This document shows positions 13,547 through 47,757 of a DNA stretch of 64,000 nt, in pieces. The DNA lies in the NCBI GenBank assembly GCA_903889655.1, contig CAISYL010000189.1, positions 1 to 64,000 on the forward strand, read 5' to 3'. The number at the start of each line of letters is the position of its first letter. The stretch's first letter is position 1. The position numbers were made by a program, and so were the translations under genes. Under the pieces are notes generated by a model, which saw only the letters and a program-made list of their open reading frames with translations, was not told the DNA's origin and made no database searches. Source of the stretch: an uncultured Alphaproteobacteria bacterium. GTDB lineage: Bacteria > Pseudomonadota > Alphaproteobacteria > Parvibaculales > Parvibaculaceae.

Positions 13547-14410
13547 ATGATCCACTTGTCCCTCGGCATGCTCGAAGCCCGCATCGCGCCTCTCGCGGGC
13601 GGAAGCATCGCCTCCTTCTCAGCCGCCGGGCAGGACATGCTGCGCCCCCTTCCCGTGGCGGACGAGCACGACCCGATGGCGATGGCCTGCCATCCGCTCG
13701 TGCCCTTTTCGGGACGTATCGCCTGGGGGCGGTTCACTTTCGAAGGCCGCACGGTAACGCTGCCGCCCGACCCCATCGCGCTGCCGCACGCGATCCACGG
13801 GCTCGGCTGGCGGCATCCCTGGGAGGTGACGCGAAGCGACGCGCAGGAGGCCATGCTGGCCTTCCGGCATCCGGGCGGCGACTGGCCCTGGGCCTTCGAG
13901 GCGCGGCAGCATTTCGTCCTCGACGAGACCGCGCTCACCGTCACGCTCGCCCTCATCAATCGTTCGGAAACGCGGATGCCGGCGGCACTCGGCCTTCATC
14001 CCTTCTTTCCTTCGCGGCACTCGGCGCGGCTGACGGCACGCCTCCCCTTCATGTGGGACATGACATCCGACCTGATGCCGGCGCGACGGATCGACGTGCC
14101 CGAGGGCCTCGATTTCGCCCGCGGCCGGGACCTCGCGCCGCTGTCGCTCGACGACTGCTTCGCCGGCAATGACGGCGCGTTGCTGATCGAGTGGTCGGAT
14201 CGCCGGCATGCGCTGCACATCACCCGGCCGGGGGCGGCCGACACGATCATCTATACGCCGCGGGAACACGACTTCTTCTGCGTCGAGCCTTCGACACATG
14301 TGCCGAACGGCTTCAATCTCGACGGACCGCCGGAGATCACCGGGCTGCGTGTGCTCGAACCGGGCGAGGAGACGCGGCTCGCATGCCGGTTCGAGGTTCT
14401 CTGGCGCTGA
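13547..14410 (+). CDS. Aldose 1-epimerase family protein
   Basis: GGSIASFSAAG, HPLVPFSGRI, HGLGWRHPWEV, ALGLHPFFP, FCVEPSTHVPNGFN. Confidence 0.85.
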   Translation: MIHLSLGMLEARIAPLAGGSIASFSAAGQDMLRPLPVADEHDPMAMACHPLVPFSGRIAWGRFTFEGRTVTLPPDPIALPHAIHGLGWRHPWEVTRSDAQEAMLAFRHPGGDWPWAFEARQHFVLDETALTVTLALINRSETRMPAALGLHPFFPSRHSARLTARLPFMWDMTSDLMPARRIDVPEGLDFARGRDLAPLSLDDCFAGNDGALLIEWSDRRHALHITRPGAADTIIYTPREHDFFCVEPSTHVPNGFNLDGPPEITGLRVLEPGEETRLACRFEVLWR

Positions 14411-14413
14411 TCG

Positions 14414-15361
14414 TCAGAAGACGATGCGCAGCAGCGAGAAATCGTCGGGCAGAGGCCCGTCGCCATTCAGCGATCTGATCCATTCGTGAATTTTCGTCGG
14501 CTCGTCGCCGCCCGGCGCGGCGAGGAAGTTTACGAATTCCGAAAACGGAAGCATCTCGCCCGGCCCCGTCTCGACCTCGAAAGTGCCGTCACTCAGCAGC
14601 AACAGCCGGTCGCCCGGCACGATCTCCTTCGTCACGCAGCGATAGGTGATGCCCGGAAAGGTGCCGAGCGCGACACCCTTGGCGGTAAGTTCGGCGACCT
14701 CGATTCCGTCGGCGCCGCTGCGCAGATGGATCGAGGGGGGATGGCCGGCGCTGGAGAAGCTGAGCTGTCCGGTCGAGCGCTTGTAAACGCCGTACCAGAT
14801 CGTGAAATACATGTCGTTCTGCTTCTCCATCGGAAAAGCTTCGTTGAGCGCGCCGAGAACGGCGGCGGGGTCGCGGAAGTCCGTATTGGGAAGCGCGGAG
14901 GATCTGAGCACGTTGATGGCGGTGACTGAAAGCAGCGCGGCGCCGACGCCATGACCGCAGACGTCGAGCAGATAGAAGGCCATGTGGTCGTCGTCGATCT
15001 CGTGATAGCCGAAGCTGTCGCCGCCAAGCTCGGTCGAGGGAACCAGCAGCCAGTCGGTCGCCGGGGCGGCCTCCCGCGGGGCCGGCAGGATCGATATGAC
15101 ATAACGCGTCGCGTCCGCCAGTTCCTCATCGAGCCGCTTCTGCGTCTTCTGCAGCAGGATATTCTTGTCGGCGAGTTCGTCCTCGACGGCCTCGCCATGC
15201 TCGATCGTGCCCTCGTAAAGAAGCCTGAGGTCTTCGATCTCGGCGTTCAGCCGCGCGATCTCCGCTTTGGCCTCGGCGAGTTGTGCCGAAATGGGCGGGC
15301 GCGGCGCGCGGGGTTTGCGCGGGGCGGCCTTCTTCTGACGGCTGGCGGTCTGCTTTTCCAT
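14414..15361 (-). CDS. SpoIIE/RsbU-type PP2C phosphatase with N-terminal coiled coil
   Basis: TELGGDSFGYHEIDDDHMAFYLLDVCGHGVGAALLSV, SFSSAGHPPSIHL, LLLLSDGTFEVE. Confidence 0.88.
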   Translation of the reverse strand: MEKQTASRQKKAAPRKPRAPRPPISAQLAEAKAEIARLNAEIEDLRLLYEGTIEHGEAVEDELADKNILLQKTQKRLDEELADATRYVISILPAPREAAPATDWLLVPSTELGGDSFGYHEIDDDHMAFYLLDVCGHGVGAALLSVTAINVLRSSALPNTDFRDPAAVLGALNEAFPMEKQNDMYFTIWYGVYKRSTGQLSFSSAGHPPSIHLRSGADGIEVAELTAKGVALGTFPGITYRCVTKEIVPGDRLLLLSDGTFEVETGPGEMLPFSEFVNFLAAPGGDEPTKIHEWIRSLNGDGPLPDDFSLLRIVF

Positions 15362-15570
15362 GATGAGCACTGTGATAAGTGGCCCGGGGAGCCGACGCAA
15401 GGCCGTCACAAAACTGCAGCATCCGGGTCGTCTCCGGTCTGCCGCCCGGTCCGGAAAGAGGACCGAATTTTAACCGCCATGCTGTCCACTCACTCCACTG
15501 GACATGAGGGAAAAAGCGGATACCTTCGAGCCGATCGGGGCTACCAGACTGTTTTTGCAGGACAACTTTC

Positions 15571-16086
15571 ATGAGTGCGGACGCTCGCATGCGCGACGGC
15601 GGCGCGGATTTCAAGCCGCTGTTCGAGATGGCCCTGGGGGTCGAGGCCTTTGCCTCCAACTGGGCGCATTGCGACAAGATCGCTACCTATGTCGCGCGAC
15701 TGGTGAGCCACAACCGGACCGACAGTCTGCTTTACGCGAATCTTTTTTCGTCCGCCCTCAACGAACTTCTGGAGACCGCCTTTCGCGCCCATCGCGGCGG
15801 CGGCGAACTTGCCTGCCATGTCTCGCGGTCGGGGCCTGTCGACCGCATCGAACTCACCATTCCCTGCGACGAGGTCCTGCGTGGCTTCTATACGCGCGCG
15901 ATCGAGGAGCTCAGCGGGGACGATGTGTCGGAACGCTATGTCGCCGCGCTGCTCGCCGACGGCGCGCTCGATCCCGGCATCGGCCTTCTTGAACTGGCCG
16001 TCGACTATAAGGCGCGACTCTCGCTCGAACCCGGCGACGGCGATGCCGTTCGCCTCGTTGCCGATCTCGCTCTCGAAGAGGCTTGA
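15571..16086 (+). CDS. GHKL/anti-sigma-kinase-like regulator (slr1658-type), apparently degenerate
   Basis: N-box-like LNELLETAFRA (Thr instead of Asn) and DPGIGLLELAVDYKA resembling the G-box region of the 19657 protein; genomic context with STAS and PP2C genes. Confidence 0.55.
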   Translation: MSADARMRDGGADFKPLFEMALGVEAFASNWAHCDKIATYVARLVSHNRTDSLLYANLFSSALNELLETAFRAHRGGGELACHVSRSGPVDRIELTIPCDEVLRGFYTRAIEELSGDDVSERYVAALLADGALDPGIGLLELAVDYKARLSLEPGDGDAVRLVADLALEEA

Positions 16087-16118
16087 AGCCCGATCCTGCG
16101 CCTTTGGGGGGCGCCGCC

Positions 16119-17276
16119 ATGTCATTCACGATCCGCTATGACGACAACAACCAGGAACTGATGGTTGCAGGCTCGATGAGCCCGCAAAGCGCCGGCGAGC
16201 TTGGCGAGTTGCGCAAGATCTTCGAAAAATCCGCGCGCACCGTCAACGGCACGCTCTATCTCAACGTCAAGCGGCTGATCCGGCTGAACAACATCGCCTT
16301 TCACGAGCTTGCCGGCCTCGTCGCACGGACCTGCCAGGAAAAGCCGGAGCTCAAAATCTCCGTCGTGACTTCAAGCGTGGTCGGCTGGTCGGCGCGCAAA
16401 TTCTCGAAGCTCGCTCGCATCAGCCCGAACATTTCGGTCGAGCAATACGACAAGCAGTTCTATCCCGGTCAGGACGTGTTGGAGGACGGCGGCTTCATCC
16501 CGATCCTCCGTACCCAGACCAAGATGACGTGGCGCCACGAGCGCGAAATCCTGCCGCGCCACGGCCTCAAGCCCGGCATGGCCGTTGCCGACGTCTGTTG
16601 CGGCATCGGCGACTTCGCCGCCCTCATCTATAAGGAGTTCACGCCGTCGCGCCTGATCGCCATCGATCACGCCAAGCCGAGCCTCGCCTACGCCCGCAAG
16701 GTCGCCGCCGATTTCGGCATCAAGGGCATTGAATATGTCTATGGCGATGCCTCGCAGCTTCTGCTCGACGACAACCAGTTCGATTTCGTGACCTGCCGCC
16801 ATTCGCTGCAGGTTTTCGACAGGCCGGAACTGATCCTGAAAGAGCTCTTCCGCATCTGCAAACCGGGCGGCCGCGTCTACATCTCGAATGAAAAGAATTC
16901 CCATTGCCTCGGCGAACCGCGCGCCGAGAGCATCCAATGGACCTATACCGAGGTCGCGAAGCTCTGGGACCATTTCAAAATGGACATCGAGCTCGGGCCG
17001 AAGAGCCGCCGCTACATGATGGATACGGGCTTTGAAGACATCCGCATGGAGTCCTTCATGGTCACCAATCTCGACGGCGACCCGCAGGATTTCGCCGACG
17101 TCATCCAGGCCTGGGAAGACGTCTATGCCGGCAAGATGGCGGCCGAGCGTGGCGACAGCGAAGAGTTCATCAAGAAGTTCCGTCAGGGTTTTCAGGATCA
17201 CATCTTCGCGGCCCTTCATCCCAAGGGCTATGCGGGCTGGCCGATCTGGGTGGCATCGGGGCGCAAACCGGCATGA
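16119..17276 (+). CDS. STAS-like domain fused to class I SAM-dependent methyltransferase
   Basis: N-terminal ~110 aa aligns by eye with STAS ORF at 20230 (RLNNIAFHELAGLV vs [29 protein letters not shown] vs [16 protein letters not shown]); C-terminal MT motifs VADVCCGIGDFAALIYKEF, VYGDASQLLLDDNQFDFVTCRHSLQVFDRPELILKELFRICKPGGRVYI. Confidence 0.75.
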   Translation: MSFTIRYDDNNQELMVAGSMSPQSAGELGELRKIFEKSARTVNGTLYLNVKRLIRLNNIAFHELAGLVARTCQEKPELKISVVTSSVVGWSARKFSKLARISPNISVEQYDKQFYPGQDVLEDGGFIPILRTQTKMTWRHEREILPRHGLKPGMAVADVCCGIGDFAALIYKEFTPSRLIAIDHAKPSLAYARKVAADFGIKGIEYVYGDASQLLLDDNQFDFVTCRHSLQVFDRPELILKELFRICKPGGRVYISNEKNSHCLGEPRAESIQWTYTEVAKLWDHFKMDIELGPKSRRYMMDTGFEDIRMESFMVTNLDGDPQDFADVIQAWEDVYAGKMAAERGDSEEFIKKFRQGFQDHIFAALHPKGYAGWPIWVASGRKPA

Positions 17277-19660
17277 GCGACATCACATTTCCCAACCGTA
17301 TCCGTTCATCCTTCCGGTCGCTGGCGCCGAAAAGTTTTCGCGCGAAATTCGTGCTTGTCGTCGGCGCCGCGGTGCTCTTCGACCTTCTGCTCTCCGGCAG
17401 CATCGCGCTCTGGAACGTCAATCGCCTCTCGCGCGACGCGACGCACGAGATCGAGCAGGGTCTCACCAAGGCGAGCCAGGAATATCTGCAGAACTACATC
17501 GAGACGACCGCGCTGCGCGCCGATCTGCTGCTCGACCGCGTCTTTTCGGAAGTGAGCGCCCTTGCCGGCTCGATGCAGATGCTGATCGACCATCCGCAGG
17601 TCAAGGCGCAGATCGGCAAGGCCATCTCCTCCGACCCGACCTTCCTGCCGCCGCTCGCCTATGACCCCAAAGGCGACTGGGTGCAGAACAAACCCGGCGC
17701 CCCCTCCGTCATGAGCGTCTGGGGTTATCTTCTCGGCAAGGACCACAAGCCGCGCCCCGACATTCTGAGCGACGTGCAACAGAACGCGATCTTCGACACG
17801 TTCGGCACGAGCCTGATGGCGAACGGGGCGAAGAAGCTGCAGATGTATTATGTCGGCCCGAAAGACCGGCCGATCATGCGCACGACGCCTTATTCCGCCC
17901 AGGCCGAAACCTTCGACAAACTCTATCCCGGCCACAACAAGGCGAATTTCTGGGACTTCTTCTTTCCCGGCGTCTATGAGGACTGGCAGGGCTGGATCAA
18001 GAACCCGGCCTCGCGCCCCGTCCCGACCGACATCACCGCCACGGCACCTTACGTCGACGCCATCACCGGCAATCTCATCGTGAGCTTCTTCCATCCGCTC
18101 TGGACGAAGGACCGCAAGAACGTCGACGGCATGGTCGCCGCCGACATTACGCTCGAACAGCTCGCCGACATCGTGCAGAGCGTCAAGCTTGCGGAGACGG
18201 GCTTCGGCTTTCTCACCATGTCGAACGGCAATGTGCTGGCGATCAATCCGGCCGGCGAGAAAGTGCTCGGGATCGCGAGCGCCAACGGCACCAGCGGACA
18301 GGGCGTCACCGGCACCGAGCGATCGCTGCGCAAGAGCAGCCAGAAGACCATCGCCTCGCTGGAGCTTCCGGCGAACGACGAGACCTCGATCCGGCACATC
18401 TTCCTCCACCAGAATGGCGAGGAAGTTCCCTATATCGTCGTGCTGCGGCGACTGAAGCCGATCAATCTCTGGAACGGCAGTGGCCCCGTCGTCGCCGAAA
18501 ATCTCGCCCTCGGCTTCGTCGTGCCGGAGCGCGAAATCTACGCCTCGCTCTTTTCCGCCCAGACCAAGATATCAAGCGCCACGACGCGCATCATGAAGTG
18601 GCAGGCCGGCATTCTCGTCTTCAGCCTTCTCGTGGTGCTCACCGCCGTCTTCGGCATCTCGAAGCGCATCACCGCGGGGCTGAGCCAGCTCGCGAGCGCC
18701 GCGCGGCGCCTGCGCGACAAGGATTATTCGGTGCGCGTCTCGATCCCGTCCGGCGACGAAGTCGGCGAGGTGGGGGTCGCCTTCAACAGCATGGCCGAGG
18801 AAATCCGTTATCACACCGAGAATCTCGAGAAGCTTGTCGAACAACGCACGAAACAGCTCGGCGACGCCAACGAGGAAATCCTGAAGCTCAACGAAAAGCT
18901 CAAAGGCGAGAACCTGCGCCTCGGCGCCGAACTCGACATTGCGCGGCAGGTACAGATGATGGTGCTGCCGAAGCCCGATGAGCTCGACGCCATTCCGCGG
19001 CTTGACATTGCGAGCTACATGGAACCGGCCGATGAGGTCGGCGGCGACTATTACGACGTGTTGCAGGCGGGCGCCCGCGTCAAGATCGGCATCGGCGACG
19101 TCACGGGTCACGGGCTCGAAAGCGGCGTCCTCATGCTGATGGTGCAGTCGGTCGCCCGCGCGCTACAGGAGCGCGGCGAGGACGACCCGAAGAATTTCCT
19201 CAACGTCCTCAACCGCGCCATCTACAAGAACATCGAGCGGACGGAATCCGGCAAGCATCTCTCGCTTGCCTTCATCGATTACGCGGACCGGCAGATGACG
19301 CTGTCTGGTCAACATGAGGAAGTGCTGATCGTGCGCCGGAACGGCGATGTCGAGCGCATCGATACGATCGATCTCGGCTTCCCCGTCGGCCTCGAATTCG
19401 ACATCTCCGCCTTCACGGCGACGAAGGACATCCGCTTCGATCTGGGCGATGTGATGATCCTCCATACCGACGGCGTGACGGAAGCCGAGAGCCCCAAGGG
19501 CGAGCTGTTCGGCCTCGACCGCCTCAGCGACAGCGCGCAGCGCTATGCGCATGGCAACGCCGACGACATCAAGCGCGGCATCATCGACGATCTGATGGCG
19601 CATATCGGCACCCAGAAAATTCACGACGACATCACGCTCGTCGTTCTGAAGCACAGGTGA
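17273..19660 (+). CDS. Membrane PP2C (SpoIIE) phosphatase with Cache-like sensor and HAMP domains
   Basis: N-term TM, long periplasmic region, second TM (LVFSLLVVLTAVFGI), HAMP ITAGLSQLASAARRLRDKDYSVRV, coiled coil, PP2C ADEVGGDYYDVLQ, GDVTGHGLESG, ILHTDGVTEAES. Confidence 0.88.
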   Translation: MSDITFPNRIRSSFRSLAPKSFRAKFVLVVGAAVLFDLLLSGSIALWNVNRLSRDATHEIEQGLTKASQEYLQNYIETTALRADLLLDRVFSEVSALAGSMQMLIDHPQVKAQIGKAISSDPTFLPPLAYDPKGDWVQNKPGAPSVMSVWGYLLGKDHKPRPDILSDVQQNAIFDTFGTSLMANGAKKLQMYYVGPKDRPIMRTTPYSAQAETFDKLYPGHNKANFWDFFFPGVYEDWQGWIKNPASRPVPTDITATAPYVDAITGNLIVSFFHPLWTKDRKNVDGMVAADITLEQLADIVQSVKLAETGFGFLTMSNGNVLAINPAGEKVLGIASANGTSGQGVTGTERSLRKSSQKTIASLELPANDETSIRHIFLHQNGEEVPYIVVLRRLKPINLWNGSGPVVAENLALGFVVPEREIYASLFSAQTKISSATTRIMKWQAGILVFSLLVVLTAVFGISKRITAGLSQLASAARRLRDKDYSVRVSIPSGDEVGEVGVAFNSMAEEIRYHTENLEKLVEQRTKQLGDANEEILKLNEKLKGENLRLGAELDIARQVQMMVLPKPDELDAIPRLDIASYMEPADEVGGDYYDVLQAGARVKIGIGDVTGHGLESGVLMLMVQSVARALQERGEDDPKNFLNVLNRAIYKNIERTESGKHLSLAFIDYADRQMTLSGQHEEVLIVRRNGDVERIDTIDLGFPVGLEFDISAFTATKDIRFDLGDVMILHTDGVTEAESPKGELFGLDRLSDSAQRYAHGNADDIKRGIIDDLMAHIGTQKIHDDITLVVLKHR

Positions 19661-20208
19661 AGGCGATGACGAAGAGCTATGGCGCAACGCCTCCCGCGAA
19701 GACGGACGGCCCGGCCGCTCGGCTCGTCTTTTTCGACGGCCCGCTCGACCTGAGCTGGAGCCATGCGGGCGCGACGGCGGAATTCCTCGGCGATTTCTTC
19801 TCGGGCCTTGCCGCCGCGAGCGGTGCCAACGAGAATGACGCGCGGCACAGCATCGGCTATCTCGCCAATGAACTCGTCGAGAACGCGGTGAAATTTCGCG
19901 CGGGCGGCGACGTCGCGCTCGAAGCCTCGCTCGACGGCCGGGACTTCACACTCCGGCTTTCCAATCTCGCCGCGCCGGAGACGGCCGCGCGGTTCGCGAC
20001 GCTGCTTGAGGAGATCGTTTCGCGCGATCCCGGCGAACTTCTTATCGAGCGCATCGAAGCCAATGCGGAAGACCCGGATGCCGGCGGCTCGGGGCTTGGC
20101 ATCCTGACGCTCATGAACGACTACGGCGCGGAACTCGGCTGGCGCTTCGAGCAGGCGGGCGATGCGCCCGTTCGCCTCGAAACCGTCGCGACGCTCGCGC
20201 TCTCCTGA
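19657..20208 (+). CDS. GHKL ATPase-like regulator (slr1658 superfamily-like), intact N-box
   Basis: YLANELVENAVKF (N-box), GGSGLGILTLMNDYGAELGW (G-box); overlaps upstream phosphatase stop. Confidence 0.75.
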   Translation: MKAMTKSYGATPPAKTDGPAARLVFFDGPLDLSWSHAGATAEFLGDFFSGLAAASGANENDARHSIGYLANELVENAVKFRAGGDVALEASLDGRDFTLRLSNLAAPETAARFATLLEEIVSRDPGELLIERIEANAEDPDAGGSGLGILTLMNDYGAELGWRFEQAGDAPVRLETVATLALS

Positions 20209-20229
20209 TCCTCTTCACTGAAAGCCAAG

Positions 20230-20577
20230 ATGACCACCATGGAAATCAAGACAAACGAATATCGGGTGTGGACCGACGGCGCGGCGATCTATTACGAGGG
20301 CACGATGCGGCTCTCGGGCACCGAAGCCTATGCGCCGATCCAGGAGATGATGGACAAGGTTCTGGCGGCGAAACCCGAGCGCATCACGCTCGACCTCACC
20401 GGCCTCGAATTCCTGAACAGCTCGGGCATCAACCTGCTGGCGAAGTTCACCATCGAAGTTCGCAAACAGCCCGCCATCGGCCTCGGGGTCAAGGGCTCGA
20501 CACGCATTCCGTGGCAGTCGAAATCGCTGCCGAACCTGAAGAAACTTCATCCGGCGGTCGATCTCGTCATCGCCTGA
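20230..20577 (+). CDS. STAS-domain antagonist-like protein (slr1659 superfamily-like)
   Basis: [22 protein letters not shown]; adjacent to GHKL-like gene. Confidence 0.78.
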
Positions 20578-20580
20578 CGA

Positions 20581-21366
20581 TCAACCCCACGGGCCTCGCC
20601 GGTCGTCTTCCCTTCCCTCCTCCCAGGGACCGGGCCGACGATCGAGATCGCGGCTGCCGCGGCGCGCATCGAAGACGCGGCGGGCGCCTTTTTGAAAGAG
20701 CGTCACATCGCGCTTCTTGAAAATGGGCATCAGCACCATGCCGGCGATAAAGCCGCCGACATGGGCCCAGAAGGCGACGCCGCCCTTGTCCGCATTGCTG
20801 GAGAGGCCGCTCAGGAACTGGATGACGAACCAGAAGCCCAGCACGACAAGCGACGGTACACTGATGACGCGGATGAAGAAGGGCAGCGGCATGATGATGA
20901 CGCGCACATGCGCGAAGGGCTGCAGCAGCAGATAGGCGCCGAGCACGCCGGAGATGGCGCCGCTCGCGCCGATCAGCGGCACGGTCGATTCCGGCGATTG
21001 CAGCGCCTGCGTCAGCGCCGCGATCGTTCCGCAGATGAGATAGAAGGCGAGGAACTTCACCCGCCCCATCGCCAGCTCGACATTGTCGCCGAATATCCAG
21101 AGATAGAGCATGTTGCCGCCGATATGGGCGAGGCCGCCATGCATGAACATCGAGGTGAGGATCGTCGCCCAGGCAGGAACGACGGCGGCGACATCGGGCT
21201 TGCCGAAGAGCGTCGCCGGCACCGCGCCGAATTCGAAAACCGCGCGCTCCGCCGCATTGCCCGTGAGCGACATCTGCCAGAGAAAGACAGCTATGCAGGC
21301 ACCGATGATCGACCAGGTGACGATCGGCACGCCTGGCTCCAGATTGTCGTCGGATATGGGAAACAT
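20581..21366 (-). CDS. Rhomboid-family intramembrane serine protease
   Basis: MFMHGGLAHIGGNMLYLWIFGDNVE, catalytic GASGAISGVLG, HVGGFIAGM. Confidence 0.92.
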   Translation of the reverse strand: MFPISDDNLEPGVPIVTWSIIGACIAVFLWQMSLTGNAAERAVFEFGAVPATLFGKPDVAAVVPAWATILTSMFMHGGLAHIGGNMLYLWIFGDNVELAMGRVKFLAFYLICGTIAALTQALQSPESTVPLIGASGAISGVLGAYLLLQPFAHVRVIIMPLPFFIRVISVPSLVVLGFWFVIQFLSGLSSNADKGGVAFWAHVGGFIAGMVLMPIFKKRDVTLFQKGARRVFDARRGSRDLDRRPGPWEEGREDDRRGPWG

Positions 21367-22955: not shown

Positions 22956-25900
22956 CTACCACTCGTAGCGCACGCCGGCGGTCAATTCACCGCTGGTGTA
23001 ATCGCTCTTGAACTTCACGCCGCCGTTGACGAAGCCCGACCAGCCGCCGCCAAGTCCGAAGACATTGACGCTGCCGACCACTTCGCCGAATGCGCCGTCG
23101 AACTTGTCCTGCATGACGACGTCGCCGCCGCCGGACGTGATCGTGACCTTGTTCTCGCCGTCGAACTCATCCCACACGCGGCCGGTCAATGAGACGTCGA
23201 CCCTGGTCGCGGAGGACTGGTAAGCCGTCGTGCCGCCACGCAGACCGAGGCTGCCGCGGAAGCTGTTGGCATCCTTGAAGTCGAAGGACGCACCGGCCGC
23301 CGAGAAGCTGTCGATCGAGGTCTTGGCATAGGTCAGCGAGGCCAGAGGCTCGATGAATGTGCTCGTCGAGAGCGGGAAGCGCTGGCCCGCATCGAGTTCC
23401 ACACCGAAGGTCTTCACGTCGGGGCTCGCCGTGGCGCCGCTGAGCGAGGGCGCCGAGTAGTCGACGGTGAGCAGATCGGCCTTCACCGTCGCGTCGACGA
23501 AGAAGCCGCCCGTCAGGTAGGTGGCATAGGCGCCGAGGACCGCACCCTTGTACTTCGCCGTCGTGGGCGAAGACTTGAAATCCTGGTCCGAGGTCACATA
23601 ACCCGCCGATACGCCGCCGAGCAGCGTATCGCCTTTGCCGAACACATTGGCGCCGCCGGTGTCCGCACCGACCACGAAGCCGTAGGTGTTCTGGTTGTAA
23701 TCGGCCCGGTCCGTCATCGTCGTGCCGCCGGCCGTCACGGTCTGGCTCGTATTGCGCGACGTCCAGTGACCGAGGGCCTTGCCCCAGATGCCGGGTGTCA
23801 CCTTGCCTTCGCCGCCATTCAGTTGATCGCGAAGATCGGCCTGACGATCGAGCCAGGGCGATGTTTCATACCAGAGTCCCTGAGCTGCCGTTAGCATGGC
23901 GGGCAACTGAGCCGCTTCGTCGTCGGGCAGCGAGATCAGACGTTCTTCGCTGCCGTTGTGGACGAGCTTGTAGGCAAAGAGGCCTGGGTCGACCGCTTCC
24001 TTCGAGGCGTTGTAGAGCGGCTGCGTGGTGTCGAGCGCGAAGTCCGACGCCGACGTAGCGCCGCTGACGACCAGGATGCCGTCCGCGAAATCCGGTCCGA
24101 GGTAAGAACCCGGGCCCGAGGCGAGATTGACGATCCTGATCGCCGTCGAGCCGGCCGTCCCACCATTGGCGATGAGCCTGTCGGCGGTGTTCGCCTGCAT
24201 GCTGGTGCCGCCGAGATAGGCGTCGAGAACGAGGGTGCTCGAGCCCGAACCGGTGAAGAGGCCGTCGATCGTGACCGTGTCGACAGTATCCAGATTGTCG
24301 TCGCTCAGGTCGAGCGAGCCGGAGTTGTCGAAGTTCTCCAGACCGGTGAAGACCGTATCCCCCGTCAGGTAGAAATGGCCCGCATTGTCGACCCTGTCGG
24401 TGCCCGCGCCGAAAGCGAAGGTCGCCTCGCTGCCGGCGTGGATGTCGCCCGTCGAGGTCGTCGAGAGCGTGTCGTTGCCCCCCGTGAAGTTGTTCACACC
24501 GTCGGTGTACCAGGTGTTGGACGTGTTGTTGAACGTCGCGCCGCCCGTGCTCGACAGGTCGAAGTCGACGCGGCCGGTGATGTTTCCATCGTTCTGCACA
24601 TTGACGGAGCCTGTTCCCGTGACCGTCTTGATCGCGAGCACAGCTGGCGACGGCCCTGCACCGGTCTCTTCGATATTGCCGTCTTCGTGGTTATTGATCT
24701 GAACGGTACCGCCGGTGGTGACGACATCCACGACGGATCCATTGGATGCCTTGGCGGACGCGTCATTGTCGATGGTCACGCCACCCGTCGTCGACGATGC
24801 ACTGATCGCATGGGCGTAACCCGTCACGTCGGCATTGGTGGTGACGTGGATGGTACCCGTGCCGTAGGTCAGAGCTTCGACGCCAAAGCCGCCGGCGGAT
24901 GTAACGGTATCCTCCACGTCGACGATGATGTTGCCCGTCCCGCTGGCATTGTTGACCTTGGCCAGGATGCCGGAATTGCCGGCGTCCACCGTGCCGTCCG
25001 TCGTGACTGTCACGGCGCCCGTCAAGCCGGACGTCTGTGCGAAGATGCCGTAGTAGAAGGCGGTCTGGATGTCGCCGGTGGAAGCCGTCTTGACGTTCAC
25101 ATTGCCGTAGCCCTTGGCGACGATGCCATCGCCATGACCGGCATTGATCAAGCCGCTGTAGCCGTCTTCGGAGCCGACATCGACGTCACCCGTGCCGGTG
25201 CTGATCGCGGAGATGGCGTCATTGCTGGAACCGCCGCTGTCCGTCGTGATGGCGCCGGAGCCCGTCACGGTGATCTTGCCCGACCCGGCGCTGTTCGCCG
25301 AGATGCCCAGACCGATCGAGTAGATGTCGCCATCTGAGACGATGTCGATTTTGCCGCTGCTGCCGGCATTTTTCACGTTGGCCGTGATGCCCTTGTCGCC
25401 GACATAATTTTCCGACGAGCCGATCGCATCGTTGGTCGTGATCTTGATGTTGCCGAGGGTGGCGTTCAGGTCGGTTTCCGCCACGATGCCCTCGACGGCA
25501 TCGCCGCTGATGGTGCCGTTTTTGTGGGTCGTGATCGTCACGTCGCCGGTGCCGTCCGCGTCGGCATAGATGCCGCGGTCGCCTGTGGCGTTGATCGCCG
25601 CAGAGGTATCGATGGAGAGATCGCCATCATGCGAATAGGCCTGGATACCGTCGCCGCCATTGGTCGCGATGATGCCGTGCGTTTCGATGACGACGTCGCC
25701 GTCCGCGGTGGCGCCCCAGGACTGCCGGCCGCCATTGGCATAGATGCCCACAGCCCCGTAGGTGTGGCCGCTGTCGGCGTTGACCGTGATGTCGCCCGTA
25801 CCGGTCGTGATCGAGATCTTGCCGCCATCGCTATAGGCCGCGATACCGACATTGGAGCCCAGCAATCCGCCGGCACCGTCGCCGCCGTCGACCGTGATAT

Positions 25901-28163
25901 CCGCCACGCCGGTCTTGACCGTCACGTCGCCGGCGCCGTTGAAGGACGACAGCAAGGGGTCGTAGGTGGAGGCGAGAATGCCGATGCCCGTATCGCCGAC
26001 CACATGGATGCTCGTGCCGTCTTCGCCGCCCGTCAGATCGACGCTGACGCTGCCGGTCGCAGCGCCGCCCGTGGCGCCGCTGTTCACCGCATAGACGCCG
26101 AAGCTGTTGTCGCCGTTGACCGTCACCGAACCCGTATCGCCCGTTACGATGCTCACTGTCGGCGTACTTGCGTCGTCGTCCTCGGTCTTCTTGCTTTCGG
26201 CATAAAGGCCGTAGGCAGAGAGCGGTGCCGATGCATCGACCGTAACGCTGTCGCCGTCATTGGTCGTGATCGAGGCGTTGCCCCCGGCGCTGTAGGAATA
26301 CGCACCATAGCCCGTCGGATCGATGGTCACATCGTCGGCGACGATGACCTTGGAGTCGCCGGTGCCCAACGTGCTCGCCCGGACGCCATAGAGGCCGTCG
26401 GCATAGACCGAATTGTCGACGTTCACGGTGACGTTTCCGCTATTCGACGTGTTCGTGATGTCCGCGACGATGCCGCTGCCTGTCGTCGACACGTCGGCGT
26501 CGCCCACCGTGCCGTAGTTGGTCACGTTGATGTCGCCGGTTCCCGATCCCGAGATGATCGCGTGGATCGCGTCGCGCGACGCCAGGATCGACGTGGTCGT
26601 CGAGGTGACCTTGCCGTTGGTCGTGATGTTGATGTCGCCGCTGCCGCCCGTGATCTGCGCGCGAATGGCGTCGTCGCCACCGGTGATGGTACCGCCGGAA
26701 TGGGTGGTCACATCCTCCACGGTCACCGCCGTGCCGGTCGTGATGTCGATATTGCCGCCGGCTGCCAAGGCGTAGATGCCGTAGTCGTAGCGGCCCGTGC
26801 CGGCGCTGATGTTGTTGGCGCCGGTATTGATCTCGATGTCGCCGGTCCCGGTCTGCTTCGTCCAGATGCCGGATTCGTTATTTTGGAGCGTGCCGCCATT
26901 GGCGTTCAGATTGCCCGCCTTGTTGGTGATCGTGCCGTCTGCGTTGATCGTGATCTTGCCCGTACCCGAGGTCTGCGCCTCGATGCCGTTGCCTGCCGCC
27001 GTGATCGTGGCCGTGCTGATATAGGGCCCCTCTTCCAGCGGCACGACATCCGGAACCGTCGTGCCGAAATCGATGGTGATGGCCGCGCCGCCCGACAGGC
27101 CGATCGCCGTGATGCCGTCGTCGCCGCCATTGTCGCCGGCCGTGACCGTGCCGTCCGCGATGATGTGGATCAGGCCCGTTCCGCCGCTGACCGCCTCGAT
27201 GCCGTCATCGGAGGTCGAGTCGACGGTCGTTCCGTCCTTGGCCGTGATCGTGATCGTGCCCGCGCCGCCGGTGGTCGATGCGTAGATGCCCTCGCCGCCC
27301 GTACCCGTGCCGTTCGCCGAACCCTTGTTGAGGTCGACGATCACCTTGCCGGTCGTGTTCCCGGCCTCGATGCCGGCCGCGGCGCCGGTCACGCTTGTGC
27401 CGTTGGCCGTCACCGTCACGTCGCCGCCGGAGCCATGCGCCGTCACGCCGTACCAGTTCGGGCTGCTCACGGTGCTGCCTTCACCCAGCGTCACATCGAC
27501 GATGCCGGTGCCGGCGTTCGAGGCGCTGATGGCGGAATTCACGCCGCCGGTGACGTCATCATCGCCAATGGTCACGTTGACGTCGGCGTTGGTCAGGCCG
27601 GTCTGGGCGGCATAGATGCCGTAGCTGCTGCCCGAAATCGTGTTCGTCTTGTCCTGCACGACATGCGTGAACCAGTTGGTGTCCACCGTGTTGACGCCGA
27701 CGCCGCCGCCGTTCGACACCACCGTGATGGCGGTGCCCGTCGTCGAGGTGACGCTGCCCGCCGTGCCGTCCGTCGTGAAATAGACCTGCGCGGGAAAGCC
27801 GTTGCCGTCGACATGGATGCCGTCGGCCGGGTTCATATTGTCGTTCTCGACGATCGTCGCATGATCGATGTCGACCGCGATCGCGCTGGTCGCCGAATAT
27901 GAGATATTCGTGTCAATCAGGGTGCCGGAGCAGGTCTGGGTGCCGCTCGTCCCGCCGGAGCAGGCCGCAAGGGCCGGTTGCGAGCCGAGCATCAGCCCCG
28001 CCGCGCCAGCAAGAATACCCGTTCCGAGCGCCGTCGTGATCAGAAGAGGCCGCCCCGCATTGCACCGTAGACCGATGATGTTTTCGGCCTGGCTTTTACC
28101 GGATTCGGACGCAACTCTAGAGACAGCGCCGATCACTCGGCGCAGCATGATACCGCGGAACAT
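22956..28163 (-). CDS. Large autotransporter (beta-helix repeat passenger + C-terminal beta-barrel)
   Basis: About 1735 aa; extended signal peptide ending LAAC; Gly/Thr/Asp/Asn-rich repeats; C-terminal barrel from GIWGKALGHWTSRN... ending FKSDYTSGELTAGVRYEW. Confidence 0.88.
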   Translation of the reverse strand: MFRGIMLRRVIGAVSRVASESGKSQAENIIGLRCNAGRPLLITTALGTGILAGAAGLMLGSQPALAACSGGTSGTQTCSGTLIDTNISYSATSAIAVDIDHATIVENDNMNPADGIHVDGNGFPAQVYFTTDGTAGSVTSTTGTAITVVSNGGGVGVNTVDTNWFTHVVQDKTNTISGSSYGIYAAQTGLTNADVNVTIGDDDVTGGVNSAISASNAGTGIVDVTLGEGSTVSSPNWYGVTAHGSGGDVTVTANGTSVTGAAAGIEAGNTTGKVIVDLNKGSANGTGTGGEGIYASTTGGAGTITITAKDGTTVDSTSDDGIEAVSGGTGLIHIIADGTVTAGDNGGDDGITAIGLSGGAAITIDFGTTVPDVVPLEEGPYISTATITAAGNGIEAQTSGTGKITINADGTITNKAGNLNANGGTLQNNESGIWTKQTGTGDIEINTGANNISAGTGRYDYGIYALAAGGNIDITTGTAVTVEDVTTHSGGTITGGDDAIRAQITGGSGDINITTNGKVTSTTTSILASRDAIHAIISGSGTGDINVTNYGTVGDADVSTTGSGIVADITNTSNSGNVTVNVDNSVYADGLYGVRASTLGTGDSKVIVADDVTIDPTGYGAYSYSAGGNASITTNDGDSVTVDASAPLSAYGLYAESKKTEDDDASTPTVSIVTGDTGSVTVNGDNSFGVYAVNSGATGGAATGSVSVDLTGGEDGTSIHVVGDTGIGILASTYDPLLSSFNGAGDVTVKTGVADITVDGGDGAGGLLGSNVGIAAYSDGGKISITTGTGDITVNADSGHTYGAVGIYANGGRQSWGATADGDVVIETHGIIATNGGDGIQAYSHDGDLSIDTSAAINATGDRGIYADADGTGDVTITTHKNGTISGDAVEGIVAETDLNATLGNIKITTNDAIGSSENYVGDKGITANVKNAGSSGKIDIVSDGDIYSIGLGISANSAGSGKITVTGSGAITTDSGGSSNDAISAISTGTGDVDVGSEDGYSGLINAGHGDGIVAKGYGNVNVKTASTGDIQTAFYYGIFAQTSGLTGAVTVTTDGTVDAGNSGILAKVNNASGTGNIIVDVEDTVTSAGGFGVEALTYGTGTIHVTTNADVTGYAHAISASSTTGGVTIDNDASAKASNGSVVDVVTTGGTVQINNHEDGNIEETGAGPSPAVLAIKTVTGTGSVNVQNDGNITGRVDFDLSSTGGATFNNTSNTWYTDGVNNFTGGNDTLSTTSTGDIHAGSEATFAFGAGTDRVDNAGHFYLTGDTVFTGLENFDNSGSLDLSDDNLDTVDTVTIDGLFTGSGSSTLVLDAYLGGTSMQANTADRLIANGGTAGSTAIRIVNLASGPGSYLGPDFADGILVVSGATSASDFALDTTQPLYNASKEAVDPGLFAYKLVHNGSEERLISLPDDEAAQLPAMLTAAQGLWYETSPWLDRQADLRDQLNGGEGKVTPGIWGKALGHWTSRNTSQTVTAGGTTMTDRADYNQNTYGFVVGADTGGANVFGKGDTLLGGVSAGYVTSDQDFKSSPTTAKYKGAVLGAYATYLTGGFFVDATVKADLLTVDYSAPSLSGATASPDVKTFGVELDAGQRFPLSTSTFIEPLASLTYAKTSIDSFSAAGASFDFKDANSFRGSLGLRGGTTAYQSSATRVDVSLTGRVWDEFDGENKVTITSGGGDVVMQDKFDGAFGEVVGSVNVFGLGGGWSGFVNGGVKFKSDYTSGELTAGVRYEW

Positions 28164-28595
28164 GAAGACCCCCACCAGATTGCCGCATATCGGTATCGGT
28201 GGAAGGAACCCTTCCACGCCGATTACGGTTAAAGAATGGTGGAGACCATCTTCCAGAACATCGAAGTCCGCAAGGCCTCGTCAGGCGAAAGACACGTCAG
28301 TTTCCGGAGCAAAATTGTCGCATACGGAGTTTTGCCTTTGATTGAGAAACAGAAAATCGATTTTTACGAGCCCACACTATTCATACTCAAAATGGGTTTT
28401 ACGATAGTCACCATGCGGATAAATTCCGTCAAAGCCTCTTCGTCGGGTTCACATCGGCGGCGACGTTTCGCGTCACGAGTCGTCGACCGCCCGGACGGCC
28501 GCCACGTCGCCCCGATTTTTCGGCATCGTGAAATGTGTTATTCACTCATCAGGGCGCATCAAGACGCTTGGCATCGATGACTTGGGGAGACGTGC

Positions 28596-42309: not shown

Positions 42310-44571
42310 TCAGGCCGCCGATCCGCCGCGCAGAGCCCGGGGCGTGCTCGGAACGACGGCGGTCGCCTCGCGGATCGCCGCATCCGGATGGAGCCCGTTC
42401 GGCGCATGGCGCAGGAAGAGTTCGAATTCCGCCGCCGGCATCGGACGACCGAGGAAATAGCCCTGCGCTTCGTCGCAGCCGAGATTGCGCAGGATTTCAA
42501 GCTGTGCCGCGTCCTCGACGCCTTCTGCAAGCACATTGACGCTCAGGCTGTGAGCGAGATCGATGATGACCTTCGGGATCACCTTGCCGTCGCGCAGATC
42601 GGCGATGTCGCGCACGAAGCTGCGGTCGATCTTCAGCCGTTTCACCGGGAAGCGCTTCAGATAGGCGAGCGAGGAATAGCCCGTGCCGAAATCGTCGATG
42701 CCGATGCCGACGCCGAGGCTGCGCAGCCGGCGCAGCGTGCCGATGACCACATCGACGTCGCGCATCACCATGCTCTCGGTAACTTCGAGTTCGAGATATT
42801 GGGGCGAGATTGCGTGGCGCACCAGCGTGTTCGCCACGATATCGGTGAGATCGGGGCGACGCAGATCGACGGCGGAGACGTTGACCGCAACGCCGACTTT
42901 CGGAAGGCCCGCGTCCTGCCAGGCGCGGTTCTGCCGGCAGGCCTCGTCGAGCACCCATTTGGTCACTTCGGCGATAAAGCCGCAACGCTCGGCAACGGGA
43001 ATGAACAGGTCGGGCGCGACGAGACCGCGCTCCGGATGCTGCCAGCGGATCAACGCCTCCGCGCCGCTGATGCGGCCCGTGCGGATGTCGACCTTGGGCT
43101 GATAGAAGAGCACGAACTGCTTCTGCGCCAGCGCGACGCGCAGATCGCGCTCGATCGAATTGCGCTCCATCGCACGCAGATGGAGTTCGTGGCGATAGAG
43201 AATGCAGGCGCTCGCGCCTTCGAGTTTGGCGCGGGAAAGCGCGAGATCGGCATTCTTCATCAACACGTCGGGATCGCGGCCGTCCTGCGGATAGATCGTG
43301 AGGCCGACGCAGGCCGTCTGGTGCAACTCGTGCGCGCCGATGCGGAAGGGCACGCCGACGGCGCGGATGAAGCGATTTGCATATTCGACCGCCTCCTCCG
43401 GACCGGCGATGCCGGTCAGGATGACGCCGAATTCATCGGCGCCGAGACGCGCGACGGCGTCGCCCTTGCGCTGGCAGTTCTTCAGAATTTCGGCCGTGCG
43501 CTGCAGGATGACGTCGCCGGAATCGTGTCCCAGCGTGTCGTTGATGTCCTTGAACTTGTCGAGATTGAGGATCACCACGCCGACCGTGCCGCCATCGACT
43601 TCGGCTTGGCCGAGGACATGGGCGAGCCGCGACTTGAAATGGCTCCGGTTGCCGAGACCCGTCAGGCTGTCGGTGCGGGCGAGATCGGCAAGCCTCGTTT
43701 CGTTCTCGCTCGTCGCCTCGAAAGCTTCGGTCAATGCGGCGGCCACGATGGCGATTTCATCGCGCGGCCCTCTCGATGGCACGAACTTCGCCGCTCCCCG
43801 ACGCTCCGCATAGGCGCGCAACGTTTCGATCGGCGCGATCAGAACACGCTGTATCAGAAGAGAGAGCATCAGCACCGCGACGACGGCCGACGCGGCGAGC
43901 CAGACGAGAATGCTCCATGCCGTCTGCTGCAAGCCGGTCATGGCAGCCGAGACATTGAGGCGGAAGAAGAGTTTGCCGACGTCTCCGGTGGGAAGCGTTA
44001 CGAGGACCATGAAATCGGCGGCGTCCGTGTCGGCGCGGTCGAGGCGTTTGCCGCTCTCGGGCTTGCGCATGAACTCGTCCCTGAGCGCCTGATCGGGAAG
44101 GGCAGCCACCGGCACGCCGCGCCATGCGGATTGCGACGAAGCAACGACATTGTTGTCGGCGTCGATAATCGTCACGAGGCCGATGCGCGGTGTGTTGGAG
44201 ATGGCGTCGACGATGAATTGAAGATCGGCCGGCCCCCGCGCGCGCTTCACCGAGTTGCCGAGCACCTCTCCCAGCCCGATGGCGCGCGCCCGGATCAGCG
44301 ATTCGACCTGTGCGCTATAGAGGTGGAAAACGAAGAAGCCGCTCATCAGCACAAGTGTCGTGCCCACCACGGTCATCAGGGCGAAGACCTTGAAGCGGAT
44401 GGCGAGAAAGGTGCTGCTCACTTGCGCCATGTACGCGCCGAACCAGCCTCTCGCGAACATGTCGGCGCTCTCGGCGCGCCATGCCCGGAAATCGGACGGG
44501 AGGCCGACGTCCTCCGGCGACGCGACATCCCTGTCGCGTCCGGCGTCGCGATGTGTGACCGCCCGCTCCAT
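42310..44571 (-). CDS. Membrane GGDEF-EAL protein (GADEF variant; EAL looks intact)
   Basis: TM/HAMP-like N-term, DSLTGLGNRSHF, RLGADEFGVIL, GAEALIRWQHPERG, DDFGTGYSSLAYLKRFPVKRLKIDRSFV. Confidence 0.92.
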   Translation of the reverse strand: MERAVTHRDAGRDRDVASPEDVGLPSDFRAWRAESADMFARGWFGAYMAQVSSTFLAIRFKVFALMTVVGTTLVLMSGFFVFHLYSAQVESLIRARAIGLGEVLGNSVKRARGPADLQFIVDAISNTPRIGLVTIIDADNNVVASSQSAWRGVPVAALPDQALRDEFMRKPESGKRLDRADTDAADFMVLVTLPTGDVGKLFFRLNVSAAMTGLQQTAWSILVWLAASAVVAVLMLSLLIQRVLIAPIETLRAYAERRGAAKFVPSRGPRDEIAIVAAALTEAFEATSENETRLADLARTDSLTGLGNRSHFKSRLAHVLGQAEVDGGTVGVVILNLDKFKDINDTLGHDSGDVILQRTAEILKNCQRKGDAVARLGADEFGVILTGIAGPEEAVEYANRFIRAVGVPFRIGAHELHQTACVGLTIYPQDGRDPDVLMKNADLALSRAKLEGASACILYRHELHLRAMERNSIERDLRVALAQKQFVLFYQPKVDIRTGRISGAEALIRWQHPERGLVAPDLFIPVAERCGFIAEVTKWVLDEACRQNRAWQDAGLPKVGVAVNVSAVDLRRPDLTDIVANTLVRHAISPQYLELEVTESMVMRDVDVVIGTLRRLRSLGVGIGIDDFGTGYSSLAYLKRFPVKRLKIDRSFVRDIADLRDGKVIPKVIIDLAHSLSVNVLAEGVEDAAQLEILRNLGCDEAQGYFLGRPMPAAEFELFLRHAPNGLHPDAAIREATAVVPSTPRALRGGSAA

Positions 44572-47139: not shown

Positions 47140-47757
47140 ATGGCGCAAGACCCGAGGGGAGCCGGCCCCGGCGGCATACCGGACCGGCGTCCGACGGCAA
47201 TCATGGAAGCTGACCCCAAGGCCATGGCGCTGCTGATAGAAGCCATCGCCAAGCGGAAGGACAAGACGGCCTTTGCAAGCCTCTTTGGCTATTATGCGCC
47301 GCGCCTCAAATCCTATCTCCGTCGGCTCAAGGTCGAGGAGAAGCAGGCGGAAGACCTCGCCCAGGAGGTGATGTTGACCGTGTGGCGGAAGGCCGAGCTT
47401 TTCGACCCGGCCAAGGCATCCGTCGGCACCTGGATATTCACGATCGCACGCAATCGCTTCATCGATGCCAAGCGGCGCGAAAAGCGGCCTGAACTCGATC
47501 CGGACGACCCCTCGTTTCAACCGGAGGCGCCGCGCGCGGCCGATGCGGAAGTCGCGGCCGGCGAGATCGGCATTCGCGTCCGTGCCGCCCTCTCCGCCTT
47601 GCCGCCCGACCAGGCGCGGGTCGTCACGCTCTCCTTTATCGACGCACTTCCCCATTCCGAGATTGCCGCGCAGCTTTCGATCCCGCTCGGCACCGTCAAA
47701 TCGCGCTTGAGACTTGCCTTCGCCCGCCTGCGCTCAGCGTTGGAGGACATGCAATGA
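47140..47757 (+). CDS. rpoE: RpoE-type ECF sigma factor
   Basis: Sigma2 FASLFGYYAPRLKSYLRRLKVEEKQAEDLAQEVMLTVWRKAELFDPAKASVGTWIFTIARNRFID; sigma4 ALPPDQARVVTLSFIDALPHSEIAAQLSIPLGTVKSRLRLAFARLR; start chosen downstream of promoter. Confidence 0.9.
   Translation: MAQDPRGAGPGGIPDRRPTAIMEADPKAMALLIEAIAKRKDKTAFASLFGYYAPRLKSYLRRLKVEEKQAEDLAQEVMLTVWRKAELFDPAKASVGTWIFTIARNRFIDAKRREKRPELDPDDPSFQPEAPRAADAEVAAGEIGIRVRAALSALPPDQARVVTLSFIDALPHSEIAAQLSIPLGTVKSRLRLAFARLRSALEDMQ

Follow-up and report, generated by a model that had tools for sequence, protein, structure and literature searches.

The window, i.e., the whole stretch of 64,000 nucleotides that was analysed, carries six adjacent genes whose positions and domains, as proposed for 14414-20577 in the first-pass annotation of this DNA, were borne out by the list of open reading frames and a profile search (Table 1). 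The five forward-strand genes are designated S, T, U, W and V after their orthologues in Sinorhizobium meliloti, a nodule bacterium. Two gene overlaps had been described on that strand; the one at 17273-17276 stands, whereas that at 19657-19660 requires a GTG start for W, and the ATG at 19666, whose Met (M4) is at least 90% conserved in the alignment, is the likelier start. The cluster is free of sigma factor genes, as had also been claimed: in the profile search of the window the nearest Sigma70_r2 match lies at 47281, 26.7 kb away, and a sigma factor was rejected as the controlled target given that none is encoded within the cluster. The GC content of the module (62.3% versus 64.1 and 63.1% in the flanks) is uninformative on foreign origin, and base composition was discarded as a sign of it. 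Elsewhere in the window, a 1753-aa open reading frame (22956-28217, reverse strand) has a repetitive translation that looks autotransporter-like and gave no Pfam match at 1e-5.

Table 1. Features of the six-gene module, with positions in the window and profile scores
Feature	Position	Strand	Remarks
Soluble PP2C/SpoIIE phosphatase, N-terminal coiled coil	14414..15409	-	divergent; SpoIIE 134.9 bits
Divergent intergenic region, 161 bp	15410..15570		sequence read; presumed promoters of both transcripts
S: GHKL pseudokinase, BgrS orthologue	15571..16086	+	slr1658 superfamily 48.2 bits
T: STAS-methyltransferase fusion, BgrT orthologue	16119..17276	+	slr1659 STAS 35.2 bits, Methyltransf_11 67.1 bits
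U: membrane Cache-HAMP-PP2C phosphatase, BgrU orthologue	17273..19660	+	dCache_1 32.8, HAMP 51.7, SpoIIE 125.4 bits
W: GHKL kinase, intact N-box and GSGLG, BgrW orthologue	19666..20208	+	slr1658 superfamily 158.9 bits
V: stand-alone STAS, BgrV orthologue	20230..20577	+	slr1659 superfamily 141.7 bits; probable true start 20239
Whole six-gene unit	14411..20580		flanked directly by the genes for aldose epimerase (end at 14410) and rhomboid (stop at 20581)

The genes of the window and those of loci with an upstream GGDEF-EAL gene match the region 458.8-465.6 kb of pSymB in S. meliloti 1021 colinearly and one-to-one, with identities to the window proteins of 44% (S), 65% (T), 63% (U), 47% (W) and 64% (V). 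The bgrRSTUWV operon of S. meliloti was reportedly described by Baena et al. in 2019, and SMb20447 is presumably the locus tag of bgrR, pointing to its place on pSymB. In the passages that two citing papers devote to it, the BgrSTUWV partner switch controls the diguanylate cyclase BgrR, and BgrU and BgrW are the phosphatase/kinase couple acting on the STAS protein BgrV (PMC7647112, PMC8457831). Because the gene order and these published roles fit R-S-T-U-W-V, the window is read as bgrSTUWV minus bgrR, and as regards the bgr relationship alone we are nearly certain that the module is a BgrR-less variant of this switch; the identification draws on sequence, on gene order and on what the two papers say of the genes' roles. 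The earlier proposal of a partner-switching module is thereby supported, the S. meliloti orthologues being a published switch in so far as those passages describe it.

The likeness to bgrRSTUWV comprises five colinear orthologues, among them the membrane PP2C, the kinase and the STAS protein with roles published in those passages, and the residues by which U and W would set the phosphorylation of V are conserved. The difference is that bgrR is absent and the divergent soluble PP2C gene stands in its place, where rhizobial operons have the GGDEF-EAL gene, and that the genome lacks BgsA, the mixed-linkage glucan synthase and downstream effector. A GGDEF-EAL gene, expected as the first gene of the operon, was not found upstream in the window, and the genome to which the window belongs gave no BgrR orthologue, the best match having 41% identity in the catalytic domains only and all matches beginning at residue 94 or later. 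As the BgsA query we used a 669-aa GT2-like open reading frame on pSymB, which we take to be BgsA from its size and place; no orthologue was found in the genome, the best match being 27% over the glycosyltransferase part. Control of mixed-linkage glucan in the window organism was rejected, as neither a BgrR nor a BgsA orthologue is present. The window also encodes, at 42310-44571 on the reverse strand and about 22 kb from the module, a GGDEF-EAL protein of 753 aa whose N-terminal part is not orthologous to that of BgrR.

The W and V proteins exceed the curated cut-off of 100 bits for the slr1658/slr1659 superfamilies (NCBIfam NF047703, NF047705), whereas the matches of S and of T's STAS domain fall short of it, their kinship being backed by hhalign (S versus W, 96.3%). 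W had been noted for an intact N-box, and indeed it has the sequence NELVENAVKF there; the N-box Glu and Asn are kept in 85/85 sequences and GSGLG is nearly invariant. V carries the motif Asn63-Ser64-Ser65-Gly66, in which both Ser are invariant in 85/85. In S, the N-box Asn is replaced by V, T, L, I or M in all 85 readable rows and GSGLG is lost; its model (pLDDT 88.8) has a GHKL fold, with SpoIIAB (1tid) and SiaB (6kko) as the nearest folds. The initial description of S as GHKL-like therefore holds for the fold and a weak slr1658 match, but not for the kinase residues, which are lost in all readable orthologues. The S and T pair, having neither the N-box Asn nor a conserved acceptor Ser/Thr, does not qualify as an active kinase with its substrate. 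Because the STAS domain of T is without the acceptor Ser and S without the N-box Asn, only the W/V pair can, to judge by these residues, be a phospho-switch. In S. meliloti records the S gene is annotated as 'ubiquinone biosynthesis methyltransferase UbiE' (e.g., L108:7841-8359, CP050561.1), which looks like a misannotation, because both the family profile and the fold of S are GHKL.

The fusion protein T consists of a STAS domain (about residues 1-110), a conserved linker (111-148) and a class I SAM methyltransferase domain (149-385), and in the profile search its slr1659-type STAS match (E 1.3e-8) precedes a UbiE-like methyltransferase. The lack of a STAS fold in residues 1-110 of the protein starting at 16119 had been set beforehand as a refutation test, and the AlphaFold2 model from 42 orthologues (mean pLDDT 84.9, low-confidence hinge at 112-117) has its strands and helices in the STAS order there; its methyltransferase part has a class I fold, with 3mgg as the nearest structure. 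Profile-profile alignment of the fused with the stand-alone STAS domain (hhalign, probability 94.6, E 7e-8) confirmed the register, in which the phospho-acceptor falls on residue 58 counted from 16119. This position is occupied by N in 72, M in 11 and S in 3 of 86 fusions; a Thr adjoins the lost acceptor position in 34/86, and the window has Asn58 with Ile59 instead. With the acceptor lost in 83/86, the idea that the fused STAS domain is itself under direct phospho-control was rejected. The wiring of the SpoIIAB/SpoIIAA kind that had been suggested for the fusion is inapplicable, because its STAS domain lacks a conserved acceptor and the neighbouring GHKL protein is a pseudokinase. If T is regulated at all, proteins would compete through the pseudokinase, and phosphorylation of the STAS domain that T carries would not be the means.

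The SAM-site residues D158, G162, G164, D183 and D210 of T are invariant in 42 rows, and N57, S85, S86 and W90 of its STAS domain in 24 sequences. Within the loci carrying the soluble PP2C gene, mean pairwise conservation is 78% for the methyltransferase domain versus 53% for the STAS domain. The nearest structures (3mgg, UbiE-like and phosphoethanolamine methyltransferases) were considered as guides to the methyltransferase substrate, and none is fixed by them. No STAS-methyltransferase partner switch came up in a literature search, and a review of STAS-only proteins does not contain the searched terms.

As for the phosphatases, U matches the SiaA model with 125.3 bits over residues 444-792, which is below the SiaA cut-off, and also matches SiaA (6k4e) and Rv1364c (3ke6); its dCache_1 match is weak and also below the cut-off. 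The catalytic Asp motifs of the soluble PP2C (GGD, DVCGHG, SDG, PDD) are kept in 15 aligned sequences. An RsbW-like gene on contig 138 of the same genome was rejected as its partner, since it sits in a STAS cluster of its own and no link was found. The region concerned (L106:5024-8639, contig C138) encodes an RsbW-like protein, two STAS-like proteins and an apparent Na/Pi-cotransporter-like protein.

We scanned 84,980 genomes and compared 85 loci, i.e., the best 80 of 219 relatives plus five loci from a phylum sample. Co-occurrence of the genes had been set in advance as a test of the module, and the order S-T-U-W-V is complete in 83 of these 85; L023 ends at a contig edge, and in L022 no gene next to the fusion is recognisable as the first GHKL gene. 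With these two incomplete loci included, T was found together with other module genes in all 85 (best 80 of 219 plus five). In a class-wide sample, the four genomes (4/4) with an above-cut-off slr1659 STAS carry a STAS frame of about 400 aa some 4.1-4.2 kb upstream. The gene preceding the core differs: among the 85 loci (best 80 of 219 plus five), it is only a GGDEF-EAL gene in 67, adjoining the core and on its strand, and only the soluble PP2C gene in 14, in divergent orientation; none has both and four have neither. In the tree of T, the GGDEF-EAL type forms one side of a single branch with support of 100/100 and the window lies on the other side, its closest neighbours being gammaproteobacterial MAGs; the supported set also takes in a Chthoniobacteraceae MAG, and misbinning may explain where these MAGs are placed.

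Within the boundaries originally drawn, the six genes behave as a single unit in gain and loss: in the congeners G748 and G689, which have empty sites without the module, the epimerase gene adjoins the rhomboid gene, and in the window the module separates the two. The congener G751 has the same six genes elsewhere (73% identity for the soluble PP2C, 87% for the fusion), in a region with none of the tested flanking genes of the window, and is the only one of 26 congeners with the membrane phosphatase U.

Gene content, order and orthology, the motifs lost and retained and the behaviour as one unit are demonstrated; in the mechanism that we build on them, all contacts between proteins, the direction in which control runs, the ligand and the substrate that is methylated are putative. 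U would sense an extracytoplasmic ligand and dephosphorylate Ser64 of V, which W would phosphorylate, and S and T would form a second GHKL/STAS pair not open to phosphorylation of the usual kind. V in its unphosphorylated form and the STAS domain of T may compete for the same GHKL protein, most likely S, and the phosphorylation state of V would thus leave the methyltransferase bound or free; the divergent soluble PP2C would act as a second phosphatase input. We give this whole mechanism, with the methyltransferase as the output, a probability of roughly 0.45. With neither a BgrR nor a BgsA orthologue, the genome lacks the known output path, and for this reason, together with its conserved SAM site, T would be the likeliest output. 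The earlier suggestion that a methyltransferase is regulated rather than transcription is plausible for this variant, but the known output of the orthologous S. meliloti operon, as the citing papers present it, is a cyclase. Moreover, S and T are equally conserved in loci that have BgrR, which argues against T as the output, and they may therefore regulate the cyclase instead.

An alternative is that the target of V is a diguanylate cyclase or phosphodiesterase encoded elsewhere in the genome, as in SiaABCD and Bgr, with S and T as accessory regulators and methylation tuning a component rather than being the output. BgrR is the published output of the orthologous operon in the passages cited above, in 67/85 loci (best 80 of 219 plus five) the next gene upstream, on the same strand, encodes a GGDEF-EAL protein, and the genome holds several GGDEF-EAL proteins, one of them 22 kb off in the window, so V could have a target encoded elsewhere. 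We nevertheless consider this alternative doubtful, as the GGDEF-EAL proteins of the genome do not match the N-terminal part of the BgrR-like protein, the 14 loci of the PP2C type have no GGDEF-EAL gene directly upstream and a BgsA orthologue is absent.

It is more improbable that the soluble PP2C is a pivot feeding a second switch of the RsbU/RsbW/RsbV type, which would control a type VI secretion (T6SS) cluster in several relatives and would have its partners elsewhere in the case of the window. An extra classical HATPase_c_2 and STAS pair is present in 7/14 PP2C-type loci (L017:7406-8227, L043:14469-15257, L045:7359-8200 and four others). TssF lies within 10 kb of the module in 9/14 PP2C-type loci (L016, L017, L018, L025, L045, L065, L075, L077 and L082), in two different arrangements, versus 0/67 GGDEF-type loci, although the Fisher p of 7.7e-9 is optimistic and overstates independence because the loci are related. 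In L017 the module is placed between upstream TssA, TssC and TssF genes and a downstream ClpV-like AAA gene. The window, however, has no extra GHKL/STAS pair beside its PP2C gene, TssF was not found in its genome, and T6SS control was accordingly rejected for this organism. In L016, the stretch 14696-17005 (reverse strand), which separates the module from the T6SS genes, holds a protein kinase gene and a gene for a methyltransferase with a MethyTransf_Reg domain.

That the fused STAS is a constitutive structural or dimerisation domain of a co-transcribed methyltransferase uncontrolled by the switch is very unlikely, since each of the 85 loci (two of them incomplete; best 80 of 219 plus five) has T alongside the other genes, as has the different locus of G751, and the STAS positions listed above are invariant, even though conservation of this domain is far lower than that of the methyltransferase and its acceptor residue is missing.

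The proposed switch with T as its output resembles SiaABCD of Pseudomonas aeruginosa in its HAMP-PP2C, its GHKL kinase and its STAS-like substrate with an N-[T/S]-S phospho-motif, in having an enzyme, not a sigma factor, for its output, and in the likeness of the S model to SiaB (PMC7647112, PMC8457831). SiaC is phosphorylated at T68 of N67-T68-S69 (PMC8457831), which corresponds to N63-S64-S65 of V; however, V is a slr1659-type STAS protein without a match to DUF1987, the family of SiaC, and the operon of the window lacks the SiaD cyclase and adds the pair of pseudokinase and STAS-methyltransferase. The logic of phosphatase, GHKL kinase and STAS protein is shared with SpoIIE/SpoIIAB/SpoIIAA and RsbU/RsbW/RsbV, but the cluster is without a sigma factor and its enzyme-attached pair has lost the kinase and acceptor residues. 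To our knowledge, the cyanobacterial slr1658/slr1659 proteins form a single pair without a methyltransferase fusion. A broader generalization, which we regard as tentative and rather unlikely, is a partner switch with a methylation output in which the conserved pseudokinase and the non-phosphorylatable STAS domain make up a second, phosphorylation-free relay, coupled according to lineage to c-di-GMP enzymes, a further RsbW/RsbV-like pair or type VI secretion.

As far as the citing papers describe it, the control of a diguanylate cyclase by bgr is known; here the same core occurs without the cyclase, as a six-gene unit. The type VI secretion genes near the module in relatives provide a lead for the control of this system in rhizobia and Roseibium. 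The five-gene core without the cyclase is a natural experiment on the roles of S and T, its least understood members. If T is indeed the output, methylation would join transcription and c-di-GMP among the targets of partner switching.
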